Positions 10,466 through 63,235 of a stretch of 64,000 nucleotides of DNA are shown one piece after another. The notes beneath the pieces were generated by a model. The model was not told the DNA's origin, ran no database searches, and worked only from the letters and a program-made list of their open reading frames with translations. The DNA lies in contig JABLXN010000023.1 in assembly GCA_013177995.1 (NCBI GenBank), forward strand, positions 1 through 64,000, in the 5' to 3' direction. A program made the position numbers and the translations under genes. This stretch comes from Brevinematales bacterium (GTDB lineage Bacteria; Spirochaetota; Brevinematia; Brevinematales; Thermospiraceae). The first letter of the stretch is position 1. The number at the start of each line of letters is the position of its first letter.

Positions 10466-10520
10466 GGCTATCACCTTGTTTCAGCAAAACACCCTCCTCT
10501 CGCTGAAATAAGGTCATAGC
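10466..10520. repeat. Inverted pair of the 20 bp GCTGAAACAAGG repeat
   Basis: GGCTATCACCTTGTTTCAGC (10466-10485) and its near inverse (10502-10520) flank a 16 nt loop, giving a long imperfect hairpin between two genes. The same unit recurs many times inside R2 elements. It has no T tract and is not a classical terminator. Confidence 0.75.
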
Positions 10521-12173: not shown

Positions 12174-12199
12174 GTTTTTTTTCAACTTAAAATTTTTTT

Positions 12200-12974
12200 C
12201 GTTTTACATTCATACAGACGGTTATCTTCACACAAAAACTGAATACCCGTTTAACCTTCTTTTTTCTTTCAGTTTGGGGCTCTTTTTGTTGCCCATCTTC
12301 CTTATTTTCACGAAGTGCTCCCGCGCGGAGCAAAAGGGACGCTGTCCTCGTCGCATGCTACGCATGCGCCTCGGACGGATAGTGCGCCGCTTTTGCGGAC
12401 AAGCAAGGGACTTTTTCTTTTCAGGGGAAGTCCTTCCTCCGTGGGCGACATTGCCTCGTCCTCGGAACTTCGGCAACCACAACTCGTCTTACTGAACCTT
12501 GCCCCCAACTTTATAAACTTTACAAACTTTCAACTTTCAACTGATACGCACCCTCACTTCGGAAGGACTTCCCCCTTTCGGCAAAAGACACACGACCGCA
12601 AAAGTGGCCCGGTGGATACTGAGCGAAGTCGAAGTGGGGTACAGAAAAAAAGGGTGATGAAAGAGCAAGCTATTCTCTTACCAGCCCGCGTGGCTTGTTT
12701 TCTCATAGGGGCTTTTTAGATATGGCACCGCGGTAGGGGCTATGGCGATATTTCAGCAAGAAAGAAACTTTCCGAGACACCAGGGCCCAGGGCTATGACC
12801 TTGTTTCAGCAAAGAACAATGGTTTAACTGAAACAGGGTAATACCCCTATCTTATCGTTATATTTTTTCAAGCACGACTCTTTTTTCAATAGGTACCAGA
12901 ACAGAAAGCTTTTGAGTTATTTCCCTTCACAGGAAATGTGAAAATAGCTAGTCAGTTTCATATGTGGAACGACA
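12200..12974 (-). repeat. R2 long repeat element, copy A
   Basis: Read on the minus strand this ~775 bp block begins with TGTCGTTCCACAT (12974) and ends near ATGAATGTAAAACG (12200). It aligns along most of its length with copy C at 50787-51970: the GAAACTGA...TATTTTCAC block, the GGCTATGACCTTGTTTCAGC hairpin pairs, a TTCTGTACCCCAC stretch, the GCATGC-TAC-GCATGC palindrome (about 12354) and the GGGTATTCAG right end. It contains one inverse copy of CTTCGACTTCGCTCAG (12616-12631). No convincing protein is encoded. Confidence 0.75.
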
Positions 12975-13013: not shown

Positions 13014-13042
13014 TTGACATTTTCCTCTCTTTCTCCTACAAT
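13014..13042 (+). promoter_or_regulatory. metE promoter
   Basis: TTGACA (13014-13019) and TACAAT (13037-13042) have a 17 bp spacer. Transcription should begin at about 13049, right at the start of the cobalamin riboswitch. Confidence 0.85.
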
Positions 13043-13044
13043 AA

Positions 13045-13204
13045 AACCATCAGGTGGCGAAAGCCTCAAAAAGGAAGTCCGGTGAAAATCCGGCGCAGCC
13101 CCCGCTACTGTAAGGCAGACGAAATCCACAGATGCCACTGGGAAACCGGGAAGGCGTGGAGAGTAGGATGAAGCCAAGCCAGGAGACTTGCCTGAAAATC
13201 CACG
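13045..13204 (+). ncRNA. Cobalamin (B12) riboswitch
   Basis: The conserved core is easy to read: GGTGGCGAAAGCCTC at the 5' stem, AAGTCCGGTGAAAATCCGG, GCAGCCCCCGCTACTGT, and the B12 box GCCACTGGGAAACCGGGAAG, closed by CCAGGAGACTTGCCTG. In this class adenosyl- or other cobalamins lower expression of the downstream gene. That suits metE, which is dispensable when B12 allows MetH to work. About 110 nt separate the aptamer from the ATG. I see no strong intrinsic terminator there, so control of translation or Rho is possible. Confidence 0.95.
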
Positions 13205-13317
13205 AACGGAGGGTTCGACTATGGTCTCTCTTTCTCCTTAAACTTTTCCCTTTTTTCTTCTCTTCCAGGTTTTTCGCTGGTGTTGTCTTTTGTATTCTCT
13301 TCAAAAAGGAGGATTGT

Positions 13318-18801: not shown

Positions 18802-18925
18802 AGCCTTTCCTCCTTGTATGTATCTTTCCCTCTTCTCAAAGGGAGATATAGTATGAAGCAAAAGACGATTTTTCGCAACTATTTTCTTTTTTGTCTTTTT
18901 CAAAAGAAACATTACCAACTATAAT

Positions 18926-18964
18926 GTGAAAATAGCTATTCAGTTTCCTATGTGGAACGACAAA
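18926..18964 (-). repeat. R2 end remnant
   Basis: About 39 bp match the left end of R2 copies A and C: GTGAAAATAGCTATTCAG followed by TTTCCTATGTGGAACGACA on the plus strand. No R2 body adjoins it, so this is a solo end. It sits upstream of the promoter at 19003. Confidence 0.75.
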
Positions 18965-21007: not shown

Positions 21008-21322
21008 GAGACCTTTGCACGAATGTGCGAAGGTCTCAAAAAAGTAATAAAAAAGCAAAAAATAGTATAAAAATATTTCTTTCCATAATCAATAATTCTA
21101 CTTTTTTGAATAGAAAAGACAAATAAGCCCTTGTAAACAGAAAAAACGGGGTTTCAGGGGCGTAGCCCCTGACCCAGAAAGGGCAAGAAAGCACCCGTGC
21201 AAGGGTCTCAATTCTACTTTTTGAATAGAAAAGACAAATAAGCCCTTGTAAACAGAAAAACGGGGAAGAGGGGCGTAGCCCCTGACCTAAAAAGGGCAAG
21301 AAAGCACCCGTGCAAGGGTCTC
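21008..21322 (+). repeat. R1 element with internal partial tandem duplication
   Basis: A full ~202 bp R1 copy (21008-21209) with hairpin arms GAGACCTTTGCAC/GTGCGAAGGTCTC and right end CGTGCAAGGGTCTC is followed by a second copy of its right 113 bp (21210-21322). The outer flanks GGATA and GAATA could be a 5 bp duplication with one change. It fills the gap between the terminator at 21001 and the MFS promoter. Confidence 0.9.
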
Positions 21323-24421: not shown

Positions 24422-24632
24422 TCGAAGAAAAGCCCTTTCTCTATTACTGACCTCCGTGTAGATAGGTATCACCTTGCTCTCCTTTTGAGGATATCTTTTT
24501 ATTGTATCGGAAGAAAAGAAAAACATTTGAATAAAAACCGATTCGACGGTGATGTCTTTCCTCTGGGAAAAACAATCTCCGCGGGCTGGTAAGAGAAGGT
24601 TCTGTTCTTTTATCTTTTTTTTCTGTACCCCA

Positions 24633-24715
24633 CTTCGACTTCGCTCAGACACCCACTTCGACTTCGCTCAGTATTCCCTTCGACTTCGCTCAGGAGCCAC
24701 TTTGACTTCGCTCAG
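24633..24715 (+). repeat. Four tandem copies of CTTCGACTTCGCTCAG
   Basis: Copies start at 24633, 24656, 24678 and 24700, with a period of 22-23 bp; the last has one change (CTTTGACTTCGCTCAG). A single inverse copy is in R2 copy A (12616-12631). The same motif is known to me as a dispersed repeat in many unrelated bacteria. Confidence 0.85.
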
Positions 24716-25140
24716 GAGCCCCACCTGGCCGCTTTTGCTGTGGTGAAAAGAACTTTTTGTACTGCTAACGGGGAAGTCTTTCCGAAGTGAGGGTGCAGGA
24801 GGCACCCGGGGCGACATCTTTTGTTGCTTTTCCCCCAAGCCCACCGAAGCAAAGCCGCGGGGGCTTTGCTGAGACATAGTAATAGCCGTGGTTGGCTTTT
24901 CTCCCTGAAACAAGGTGGCAGCCACTGCTTGAGTTTGTATGGAGGTTGGTTAAACGTTTAACCAAGTGTGTATTTGCTGAAACAAGGTAATAGCCCTGGT
25001 CCCTGGTGTTCCGGAAAGTACTTTTTTGCTGAAACAAAGTCATAGCCTTCGCCCCTGCCGCGGTGCGCCGTCATAGAAGCCCCGTGGGAACAGAAGCCCT
25101 GTGGGCTGGTGACAGAAGGCCTCATTCTCCTACGGATGGC

Positions 25141-25224
25141 CGAGCCACAGGAGGTGGCGAGGAAGCTCAAGGTCAGACAAGGAGGGTTGTCCTTGAGCGG
25201 CTACAGAAGAGAGCAAGGCTACAG
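25141..25224 (+). ncRNA. Putative structured RNA module in R2 copy B
   Basis: A GCCAC/GTGGC hairpin is followed by an eight-pair stem GCTCAAGG (25165-25172) / CCTTGAGC (25191-25198) enclosing a four-pair inner stem ACAA/TTGT around GGAGGG. The homologous 84 nt in copy C has GCCCGGGG/CCCCGGGC and ACAG/CTGT, so four pairs differ by compensatory changes. A third strand CAAGG (25214-25218) could pair alternatively with CCTTG. Transcription is not shown, and I match it to no known RNA class. Confidence 0.5.
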
Positions 25225-25497
25225 TTTTTTGTTCCAGCCCGGATGGTAAGACGGAAGACGAAATGCTATAGAAACCGTCGCAGGGGCGGGTTGGGGATTT
25301 CAAAAGGGGCGGGAGCCCCTTTTGTCCCGCGCAGAAGCGCTTCGTGGAAAAAAGGAAGATGGGTAACAAAAAGAGCCCAAACTGAAAGAAAAAAGAGGGT
25401 TAAACGGGTATTCAGTTTTTGCGTAAAGATAACCATTCTGTATGAATGTGGAACGACAAAAGAATACCATCTTCCTTTTCTTGAAAGAACCCAAAAA

Positions 25498-30738: not shown

Positions 30739-30759
30739 ACTTCCCTCCTGTCTTCAATG

Positions 30760-31102
30760 TGGAGGCGGTGGGAATCGAACCCACGTCCTGGAAAGAGATG
30801 CCATAGACCTTATCCACAGGCTTGGTCCTGCTTTGGTGTTCTTCTTCCGAAGGAGGCAGGACAAACCCTCAGAAGAAAGAGCCGGTTTGTTTCAGGCAGA
30901 AACCCCGGCTTTTTCTGCCCTATCCTCTGTGTCTGACCTTCGTTAGCTATGCAGAGGAGCCACAGCTAAGAAGGCTGGCCGGCTTAAGCAGCCAGGAGAG
31001 CAGAATTATCTGCGTCTATTTGTGTGAAGCAGTTTTAAGGGATACTTCAGCCCTGCCTGAAGTCTATAACCTCCCATTTCCAATCGAAAACCATTCGCCC
31101 CC
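30760..31102 (-). ncRNA. ssrA: tmRNA (ssrA)
   Basis: The 3' end on the minus strand is the tRNA-like T arm GACGTGGGTTCGATTCCCAC with acceptor strand CGCCTCC, which pairs with the 5' end GGGGGCG (31102-31096) over seven pairs with one G:U. CCA is not encoded. The tag frame (31013-30984) starts with the resume codon GCA after AATAGAC and reads ADNSALLAA, then TAA. The GGGCTGAAGTATCCC stem and pseudoknot-rich middle have the usual size (343 nt). tmRNA rescues stalled ribosomes and tags the nascent peptide. Confidence 0.96.
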
Positions 31103-34266: not shown

Positions 34267-34361
34267 CCTTCCAACCCAAAAGAAAGTCCCTATATTCTAA
34301 GCCAAAAAAAAGAATATGTCAATTGGGGAAAAACTCTTTTAAGACCAAAAATTGACTAGAT

Positions 34362-34561
34362 GAGACCTTTGCACGAATGTGCGAAGGTCTCAAAAAAGTA
34401 GTAAAAAAACAAAAATAGTATAAAAATATTCCTTATCATAATAAATAATTTTACTTTTTTGAATAAAAAAGACAAATAAACCCTTGTAAACAGAAAAAGC
34501 GGGGAAGAGGGGCGTAGCTCCTGACCCAAACAAGGGAAGAAAACACCCGTGCAAGGGTCTC
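34362..34561 (+). repeat. R1 element, complete copy with TAGAT duplication
   Basis: The 200 bp element runs from GAGACCTTTGCACG to CGTGCAAGGGTCTC and is flanked by TAGAT on both sides. It has the full order: left hairpin, AT-rich block with TAGTATAAAAATATT, GACAAATAAACCC block, and a hairpin GGGGCGTAGCTCC that has one change against the family. It sits between pyrK and the flaA terminator. Confidence 0.93.
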
Positions 34562-34593
34562 TAGATATTAACCCATACCTTTTCTTTAGAACC

Positions 34594-50703: not shown

Positions 50704-50786
50704 ACGCTACTCCTTTTTTTCTGATTTACTATACCCTCTTTTTCTCAAAAAATCAACTTTTTTGTGCAAAAAAGAGAAAGTCTTTT

Positions 50787-51970
50787 CGTTCCAAATGTCG
50801 TCCCACATAGGAAACTGAATACCTATTTTCACCTTTCCTGTGAAGGGACATAACATAAAAGCTTTCTGTTCTGGTACCTATTGAAAAAAGTCGTGCTTGC
50901 AAACATATAACGACAAGATAGGGCTATTACCCTGTTTCAGATAAACCTTTGTTCTTTGCTGAAACAAAGTCATAGCCATCGTCCCAACAGCGGTGCTATA
51001 TCTAACCTCTGCTGGAAGAGAAACCCTGCGAGTTGGTGAGAGAAGGTCTTGTTATTCCTCTCTTTTTTCTGTACCCCACCGGGCCGCTTTTGCGGTTGTG
51101 TACTCTTGGCCTGTGGCGGGAAAGTCCTTCCGAAGTGAGGATGCAGGAAGCACCCGAGGCGACATCTTCTGTTGCTTTTCCCTAAAAGCCCACCGAAGCA
51201 TAGCCGCGGGGCTTTTGCTGAGACAGAGTAATAGCCGTGGGTGGTTTTTCTCCCTGAAACAAGGTGATAGCCACCACTTGAGTTTGTATGGAGGTTGGTT
51301 AAACGTTTAACCAATGAGGTGGTTAGCTGAGACAGGGGAATAGCCAGAGGGGGAGGGGATTTGTGTAGACATAGGTTAAACGTTTAACCAGGTGGTGTGT
51401 TTGCTGAAACAAGGTCATAGCCCCGGTGTCCTGCGGTCTCAGAAAGCTCGCTTCTTGCTGAAACATCGCCATAGCCTTCCCGCCCCTGACTGCGGTGCGC
51501 CGTCGGAGAAGCCCCGGCGGGAGGGAAAGCCCTGCGGGCTGGTAACGGAAGTCATCGTCTTTTCACCACTGGCCGAGCCACAGGAGGTGGCGAGGAAGCC
51601 CGGGGTCAGACAGGGAGGGCTGTCCCCGGGCGGCTACAGAAGAGAGCGGGGCTACAGGCTTTTGTTTCAGCCCGCACCGTGGGAGACAGGTCGGTGGCTA
51701 CAGAAACCGCCGCAGGGGCGGGGACGGGGTTTTCAAAAGGGGCGGAGCCCCTTTTGCCCCGTGCGGGAGCGCTTTTTCCGAAGTCAGGATGACGAGTTGA
51801 TGTCGCCCACGGAGAAAGGACTTTACCCTAAAGAAAAGGTGTCTGCTTGCCCGCAAAACCGGCCCATAGTTCGTCCGAGGCGCATGCGTAGCATGCGACG
51901 AGGACAACGCCATTCTGCACCCGTCTATCGCCGCGAGGGCAAAACTTTTTGATGAATGTGAAACTACAAC
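50787..51970 (+). repeat. R2 long repeat element, copy C (longest)
   Basis: This ~1.18 kb non-coding block has a left end with TGTCGTCCCACATAGG and a right end with GATGAATGTGAAACTACA. It contains seven copies of the 20 bp GCTGAAACAAGG-type repeat (50921-51476), two LacI-operator-like palindromes (51295-51314 and 51374-51389), the structured module at 51574-51657, and the GCATGCG-TAG-CATGC palindrome near 51890. It aligns with copy A at both ends and with copy B through the middle. The 186-residue frame at 51392-51952 is not protein-like. Confidence 0.78.
51574..51657 (+). ncRNA. Putative structured RNA module in R2 copy C
   Basis: The 84 nt match the module of copy B position by position. 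The main stem is GCCCGGGG (51598-51605) / CCCCGGGC (51624-51631), the inner stem is ACAG/CTGT around GGAGGG, and the leading GCCAC/GTGGC hairpin is unchanged. The alternative partner strand CGGGG (51647-51651) changes in step. It is supported only by comparison of two copies. Confidence 0.5.
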
Positions 51971-52972: not shown

Positions 52973-53015
52973 GCTTTGAGAAAAGCCACCTTTCCCCATA
53001 CAAAAGCCCCTTTTT

Positions 53016-53218
53016 GAGACCTTTGCACGAATGTGCGAAGGTCTCAAAAAAGTGGTAAAAAAACAAAAAATAGTATAAAAATGTTCCTTAACGTAATAAA
53101 TAAACCTATTCCTTTGAACAAAAAAAGACAAATAAGCCCTTGTAAATGGAAAAAACGGGGTTTCAGGGGCGTAGCCCCTGAAACAAACAAGGGAAGAAAA
53201 TACCCGTGCAAGGGTCTC
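53016..53218 (+). repeat. R1 element, complete copy in a T-tract target
   Basis: The 203 bp element has the hairpin GAGACCTTTGCAC/GTGCGAAGGTCTC at the left and CGTGCAAGGGTCTC at the right. Both flanks are TTTTT, consistent with a 5 bp duplication but not proof of one. It lies between the TPR gene terminator and the SulP promoter. Confidence 0.9.
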
Positions 53219-55820: not shown

Positions 55821-55851
55821 AACCAAAAGCAACCCTTCTCTTTCCTGAATT

Positions 55852-56052
55852 GAGACCTTTGCACTTTCGTGCAAAGGTCTCAAAAAAGTAATACAAAACG
55901 AAAAATGATATAAAAGTATTCACTTTCATAATAAATAATTCTCTATTTTTGAATAAAAAAGACAAACCAGCCCTTGTGAACGGAAAAATCGGGGTTTCAG
56001 GGGCGCAGCCCCTGACCCAAACAGGGGAAGAAAACACTCGTGCAGGGGTCTC
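55852..56052 (+). repeat. R1 element, complete copy with GAATT duplication
   Basis: The 201 bp element starts with the perfect hairpin GAGACCTTTGCAC-TTTC-GTGCAAAGGTCTC and ends CGTGCAGGGGTCTC. Flanks are GAATT | element | GAATT. A GGCTATCACCTTG fragment related to the 20 bp repeat lies nearby at about 56078. No other feature is seen between TatD and the phosphatase gene. Confidence 0.93.
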
Positions 56053-62933: not shown

Positions 62934-62958
62934 GAAAAATAAAGAAAATTTCCATTTC

Positions 62959-63160
62959 GAGACCTTTGCACGGGTATTTTCTTCCCTTGTTTGTGTCAGG
63001 GGCTACGCCCCTGAAACCCCGCTTTTTCTGTTTCCAAGGGTCTATTTGTCTTTTTTTATCCAAAAAATAGGCTTATTTATTATAGAAAGGAAATATTTTT
63101 ATACTCTTTTTGCTTTTTTATCACTTTCTTGAGACCTTTGCACATTCATGCAAAGGTCTC
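62959..63160 (-). repeat. R1 element, complete copy with ATTTC duplication
   Basis: The 202 bp minus-oriented copy has its hairpin end at 63131-63160 (arms GAGACCTTTGCA/TGCAAAGGTCTC) and the single-arm end at 62959. Flanks are ATTTC | element | ATTTC. It lies between two divergent promoters. Confidence 0.93.
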
Positions 63161-63235
63161 ATTTCGAGGCAGTCCCCTTCAACGTCAAGAGAAGGGTAAC
63201 GGTTTTCTGAAAAAAGATTTCTCCAATACTCTTTT

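Follow-up and report, generated by a model that had tools for sequence, protein, structure and literature searches.

A family of non-autonomous transposons in a Brevinematales genome and the predicted TwoAYGGAY-type RNA among its cargo

The window analysed here (the first 64,000 nt of a contig from a Brevinematales genome of the Spirochaetota) contains several long repeats with inverted ends, and the one that we call element C raises a simple question: what is a repeat of this size if it is not a gene? The preliminary description had proposed either non-autonomous mobile elements or a family of large non-coding RNAs, on the basis of three copies, A, B and C, and a solo end. All four are real and belong to a genome-wide family. 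Element C, used as a query against its own 2.38-Mb genome (57 contigs), gave 109 matches in about 38 clusters; since a model of module M3 (see below) added further loci, the count of loci carrying part of the family is at least 50, the loci being read as stretches around the matches. In relatives, the same query found nothing longer than 27-60-bp matches.

The boundaries first given were slightly off. Element C, a non-autonomous transposon, occupies positions 50796-51968 (+ strand), with a head end on its left, TGTCGTCCCACATAGGAAACTGAATACC, and a degenerate tail end on its right, GATGAATGTGAAACTACA; a second degenerate end copy of 12 bp, TTTCGTTCCAAA, adjoins it at 50784-50795 (+). Element B (about 24547-25458, +), located upstream of carA, is without head end and has an intact tail end, ATGTGGAACGACA. 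Element A (12197-12974, -) has the same ends, and the solo head end lies at 18923-18962 (-). Long modules are indeed common to A, B and C, but the constant order once attributed to them is not: order varies from copy to copy, and some modules are inverted. That the middle of C is present in B and absent from A holds true for C:661-988. Other features of the window are a cobalamin riboswitch directly adjoining copy A (13035-13209, +), a tmRNA (30757-31102, -) and, at 24634-24720, four tandem copies of CTTCGACTTCGCTCAG, presumably a repeat widespread across unrelated bacteria.

The ends of the family are inverted (TGTCGTTCCACAT/ATGTGGAACGACA), as had been noticed in the window. With up to three mismatches allowed, the 26-bp head end TATTCAGTTTCMTATGTGGAACGACA occurs 48 times genome-wide; the reversed-pattern control gave no match, and neither did two congeneric genomes. 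Of the 22 two-ended copies, 13 are flanked by direct repeats of 14-19 bp (mode 18 bp; one of 30 bp), with 0-2 mismatches in most cases, and such a repeat is also present at locus L088. When flanks of different copies were paired at random, 3 of about 390 draws reached an equal score, for which R1 repeats shared between flanks may account. Target duplications, proposed as a check, are thus found in the family but not at A, B and C, where none was seen when the flanks were read outward from the ends; copies without duplications, these three included, may be recombination products or eroded.

Two sites bear on what was there before insertion. The element of locus L037 sits within a repeat of the R1 family; its flanks, once joined, match about 20 uninterrupted R1 copies over the whole junction, and in-silico removal of the element restores an intact R1 repeat, i.e. 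a paralogous empty site. The other is that of element B. The CarA protein of the source organism has a 91% match in the Brevinematales MAG SKW221, which by this measure is a close relative. There the carA promoter region aligns and the element is absent; since the left neighbour is different, this evidence for an empty site is only suggestive.

R1 itself, which has the ends GAGACCTTTGCACG...CGTGCAAGGGTCTC and an internal hairpin, AGGGGCGTAGCCCCT, has the appearance of another family of non-autonomous elements. It is present in the window at 128-249, 21039-21322, 34361-34562, 53015-53218, 55851-56052 and 62949-63161, and it served as target for insertion of the elements studied here at L037 and L034. 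An identical R1 sequence stands beside the head end in two copies (L085:1790-1932 and L037:3830-3967), which reflects either one site reused or exchange between copies. Nested insertions were also seen within element copies: they carry transposase genes of ISH6 type (L055:3511-4743) and IS1595 type (L079:1210-1992), both unrelated to the family.

A search for integrase-core domains revealed three genomic places inside the family's ends. One of them, at L077:1493-2859, is an insertion sequence of 1367 bp that is intact, codes for a 406-aa DDE transposase and is flanked by an 18-bp duplication, CATCTTTCTTTTCGTACC. L078 is nearly identical to it, with two one-base deletions and an 18-bp duplication of its own, AAACTTTTTTCTAAAGTA; L076 is an 87% relative. 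Many contigs end within this parent sequence, so there must be more copies of it than were assembled. The stretch that parent and elements have in common is limited to about the first 41 bp (95-98% identity) and the last 51 bp (about 80%); the head end of C (50796-50836, +) is 95% identical to the first 41 bp of the parent, and the solo head end 98% identical to its first 40 bp.

The parent transposase has an rve domain. Its best NCBIfam model is ISNCY_2 (NF033594, E 2e-38), but no NCBIfam model is matched above its curated cut-off (132 versus 250 bits). The residue seven positions after the catalytic E is a glutamine (...GKIERKIQTFQ...), the ends are TGT...ACA, the end motif recurs further inside, and L077 and L078 have duplications of 18 bp. 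Q at E+7, TGT/ACA ends and an inner end-motif repeat are traits of the IS1202 family, whose long-duplication group generates duplications of 16-28 bp (PMC10132070). To that group belong IS1202, ISCARN62/63 and ISTde1 of Treponema denticola (1327 bp, 394 aa, 17-bp duplication; PMC10132070). By these sequence traits, the parent appears to stand nearest to the IS1202 group within the IS1202 family: it resembles the group in its size (1367 bp), its single DDE transposase, the Q at E+7, the TGT/ACA ends, the inner motif and the long duplication, and differs in that its transposase falls below the curated NCBIfam cut-off. A pattern scan found the parent transposase in none of the named genomes, and no non-autonomous member of the IS1202 group was found described in the literature searched.

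Because of the shared ends, the duplications, the restored R1 site and the parent insertion sequence, we conclude that the repeats are non-autonomous (MITE-type) transposons and not decayed genes; they have ends in common with an autonomous element, target duplications, an empty site and no transposase gene of their own. The first of the two options initially proposed is upheld by the inverted ends, the 14-19-bp duplications, the intact transposase of the parent and the paralogous empty site. Since the ends are shared, we infer that the IS1202-group transposase of the 1.37-kb insertion sequence moves the elements in trans in the same genome. It would recognise the TGTCGTTCCACAT/ATGTGGAACGACA ends with their subterminal TATTCAG box, and would insert with a long staggered cut of about 18 bp.

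Inside, the elements are mosaics: their structured modules have been reshuffled between copies. Element A, for instance, reads head / C:614-759 / C:290-358 / C:989-1135, and in other copies, including L040, modules are inverted. Module M3 (51076-51211, +) contains the hairpin GGATGC-AGGAA-GCACCC, for which the family consensus is GGGTGC-AGGAG-GCACCC with a co-varying stem. Its inverted homologue is at 51776-51911 (+), C:290-425 and C:990-1125 being homologous in inverted orientation; M3 was not found in congeners. A perfect palindrome, GGTTAAACGTTTAACC, is present at 51297-51312 and again at 51374-51389. It fits the letters of an integron attC R box, but by eye the 60 nt between its copies do not form an imperfect hairpin, and attC was rejected.

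Related modules are also found in clusters devoid of ends, where units of about 76 bp containing GGTTAAACGTTTAACC and GCTGAAACAAGGTNATAGCC are repeated in tandem. Such arrays, in which GGTTAAACGTTTAACC is a LacI-operator-like palindrome, were located at L041:2900-3850, L044:2130-2500, L045:7050-8250, L053 and L057. The second sequence, GCTGAAACAAGGTNATAGCC, is a short REP-like palindromic repeat, with 238 occurrences in the genome, 14 in the congener G002, 1 in G001 and 0 for the control. It forms solo hairpins (window example, 10466-10520) and is also placed inside mosaics, often at module junctions, where it would help copies to recombine. The shuffling of modules probably arose through recombination at short internal repeats and through nested insertion. 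In agreement with the claim that no plausible protein is encoded, the three interior modules tested for coding potential showed none: none of the frames stays open across the whole set of copies, and substitutions have no codon periodicity. Global folding of whole elements gave little above shuffles (z of -1.5 on one strand of B and -2.1 on the other), so the case for an RNA rests on covariation and not on energy.

That case concerns a unit of about 330 nt (C:661-988, i.e. 51447-51774, +), present in C, in B and in some 25 other places. It is absent from A and from many copies, and is thus not needed for transposition. The unit contains a core (51528-51677, +) in which an outer stem, GCGGGCUGG/CCAGCCCGC, encloses two predicted GGA-loop hairpins: hairpin 1, GCCAC-AGGAG-GUGGC (51577-51591, +), and hairpin 2, GCCCGGGGUCAGACAGGGAGGGCUGUCCCCGGGC (51598-51631, +), with A-N-GGA in its loop. 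In the core of B (25095-25244, +), the stem of hairpin 2 is altered to GCUCAAGG/CCUUGAGC. The consensus of hairpin 2 is GCCCGGGGUCAGACAR-GGAGGG-YUGUCCCCGGGC, and both hairpins keep their loops while their stems vary on both sides. A covariance model of the 150-nt core detected 27 copies in this genome and 8 in G002. Over both species, 18 of the 40 pairs have changed on both sides; compensatory cells numbered 78, as against 19 after shuffling and 6-21 with slid structures, these counts being those of mutually related copies and hence not independent.

The strand read from head to tail folds better in two of three modules (-107 versus -81 and -30 versus -22 kcal/mol), the third giving -27 versus -30. 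Departures from Watson-Crick pairing are G-U more than A-C, by 22:6 columns when the count is confined to helices called on both strands; unpaired columns show no such bias. GGA-loop hairpins number 157 in the sense strand of the elements, versus about 70 in shuffles and 44 in the opposite strand, and CAGGANG loops 48 versus 1; a small number of repeated hairpins dominates both counts, and among enriched loop triplets GGA ranks second.

In G002 the unit also measures ~330 nt, with sharp borders, and lies outside transposon ends of this family. It is directly upstream of, and on the same strand as, repeated cassette ORFs in the seven of seven cases examined. The G002 copy that diverges most (L115) has other sequences in both stems but retains the loops, ACGGAU and ACGGAG. 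A large repeated gene family, apparently of interchangeable cassettes, was observed at L108 and L109 of G002, with the RNA unit at the upstream border of the cassettes, where it is possibly a recombination or leader element; two proteins of that family had no NCBIfam match. A match of the first model in G033 was set aside as due to chance, the region consisting of purine-rich tandem repeats.

The nearest known RNA is TwoAYGGAY, a candidate RNA found in 2010 (PMC2864571), for which CsrA binding was suggested in 2014, as one of the earliest such cases beyond the gammaproteobacteria (PMC4333381). Element C does not match its Rfam family, RF01731, and no Rfam RNA was found in the elements at curated thresholds; the divergent G002 copy scored 33.8 bits, below the gathering score of 43. 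RF01731 occurs in 15 of 392 Spirochaetota genomes, mostly once each, with four above threshold. In the reverse direction, the element/G002 model detected several of these RF01731-positive loci of other spirochaetes (L117, 5e-6; L131, 9e-5; L119, 9e-4; L118, 5e-3), and it also picked up RF01731-like sequences in G173 and G218. As in TwoAYGGAY, the two hairpins are adjacent and GGA is kept, the flanking loop letters being relaxed (ACGGAU is found in L115). Covariation, occurrence in a second species and reciprocal matches thus identify the module as a predicted structured RNA of TwoAYGGAY type with two GGA-loop hairpins. For this one module, the non-coding-RNA option of the preliminary description gains support from compensatory change, the second species and kinship to the Rfam family.

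Whether this RNA has a protein partner is a further question. The CsrA selection consensus is RUACARGGAUGU (PMC7652899), and hairpin 2 of G002, AAUACAAGGAUGUAUU, includes it complete; in the genome of the elements, csrA adjoins fliW. From this we infer a mobile candidate RNA with CsrA-type binding. We suggest, tentatively, that a head-to-tail transcript would be a target of CsrA or a CsrA-like protein and would serve either as decoy or as leader of the downstream gene. It is rather doubtful that the transposon family went further, capturing and amplifying a candidate CsrA-binding RNA of TwoAYGGAY type into dozens of decoys or leaders that would tune CsrA-FliW. The explanation as a whole, non-autonomous transposons mobilised in trans with a mosaic interior that includes a TwoAYGGAY-type RNA, is in our view highly probable.

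The most serious alternative is that the transposons are purely selfish and their interior accumulated debris without function in this genome, made up of other short palindromic repeats and an RNA captured from the host, structure having been selected before capture. This is an almost even bet. Modules are freely lost and rearranged, solo end and fragments persist, the genome harbours several other nested repeat families, and no promoter-like site was seen in C in the sense direction. Difficult to reconcile with debris are the compensatory changes and the G-U asymmetry, which are observed among copies inside one genome and not just between species, and the constancy of the GGA loops while stems vary.

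A second alternative makes the element a cis-regulatory leader, inserted upstream of promoters or in 5' regions, whose RNA controls the next gene via CsrA. Elements, parent copies included, lie 15 times between divergent genes and twice between convergent ones, against a background that is about even (from simple ORF calls), and the congener's units, all seven examined, immediately precede a cassette ORF on its strand. The divergent excess may, for its part, reflect target preference for promoter regions, or tolerance. In tandem contexts, however, neither orientation clearly prevails (about 8 co-directed, 5 opposed), and in C and others further modules intervene between RNA and gene; we regard a leader role of this kind as unlikely.

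Alternatively, the hairpins could be kept as DNA, i.e. as cruciforms or single-strand hairpins used in transposition or recombination, the paired changes arising by template switching in quasi-palindromes. Template-switch correction is established for bacterial palindromes, the interior is very palindrome-rich, and M3 and C:990-1125 are inverted homologues. We regard this alternative as improbable: G-U prevails over A-C on one strand only, with unpaired columns unbiased, and the strand favouring G-U is the TwoAYGGAY strand and the only one enriched in GGA loops. Finally, an intact gene-bearing parent, which the preliminary description had named as a possible refutation, does exist, but descent of the elements from protein-coding genes is scarcely credible, since they resemble it only over the ~41- and ~51-bp ends and have neither an all-copy open frame nor codon-periodic substitutions.

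The reading as trans-mobilised transposons with an RNA cargo joins the IS1202 group, for which we found no described non-autonomous offspring, with TwoAYGGAY, an RNA without assigned function. The dozens of diverged natural copies constitute a ready set for testing which loop letters CsrA needs and, if binding is true, the family would be a mobile element dispersing sites for a global post-transcriptional regulator.

Compared with TwoAYGGAY, the module has the same succession of hairpins with GGA-centred loops, the A-A-G linker, the longer second stem, the outer stem and the strand, with reciprocal model matches. It differs by its loops, mostly AGGAG/ANGGAG and not AYGGAY, by a score below gathering, by its inclusion in a 330-nt unit and by its number: about 27 copies, mostly in transposons, versus mostly one per genome. 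The decoys CsrB/CsrC/RsmYZ likewise display multiple hairpins with CAGGANG-type loops on one strand; unlike them, the element RNA is no dedicated gene with its own promoter, and the host has a protein antagonist, FliW. Bacterial MITEs such as ERIC and Correia/NEMIS are gene-less, intergenic and multi-copy, with the ends of a parent and an RNA-structured interior, all of which applies to the elements. The latter are longer (0.6-1.3 kb), GC-rich mosaics of variable module order, and their RNA unit also occurs, independently, in another species. To conclude, the family is ordinary as a MITE-type family with a parent, and unusual in its cargo, a conserved, predicted structured RNA with a plausible protein partner.
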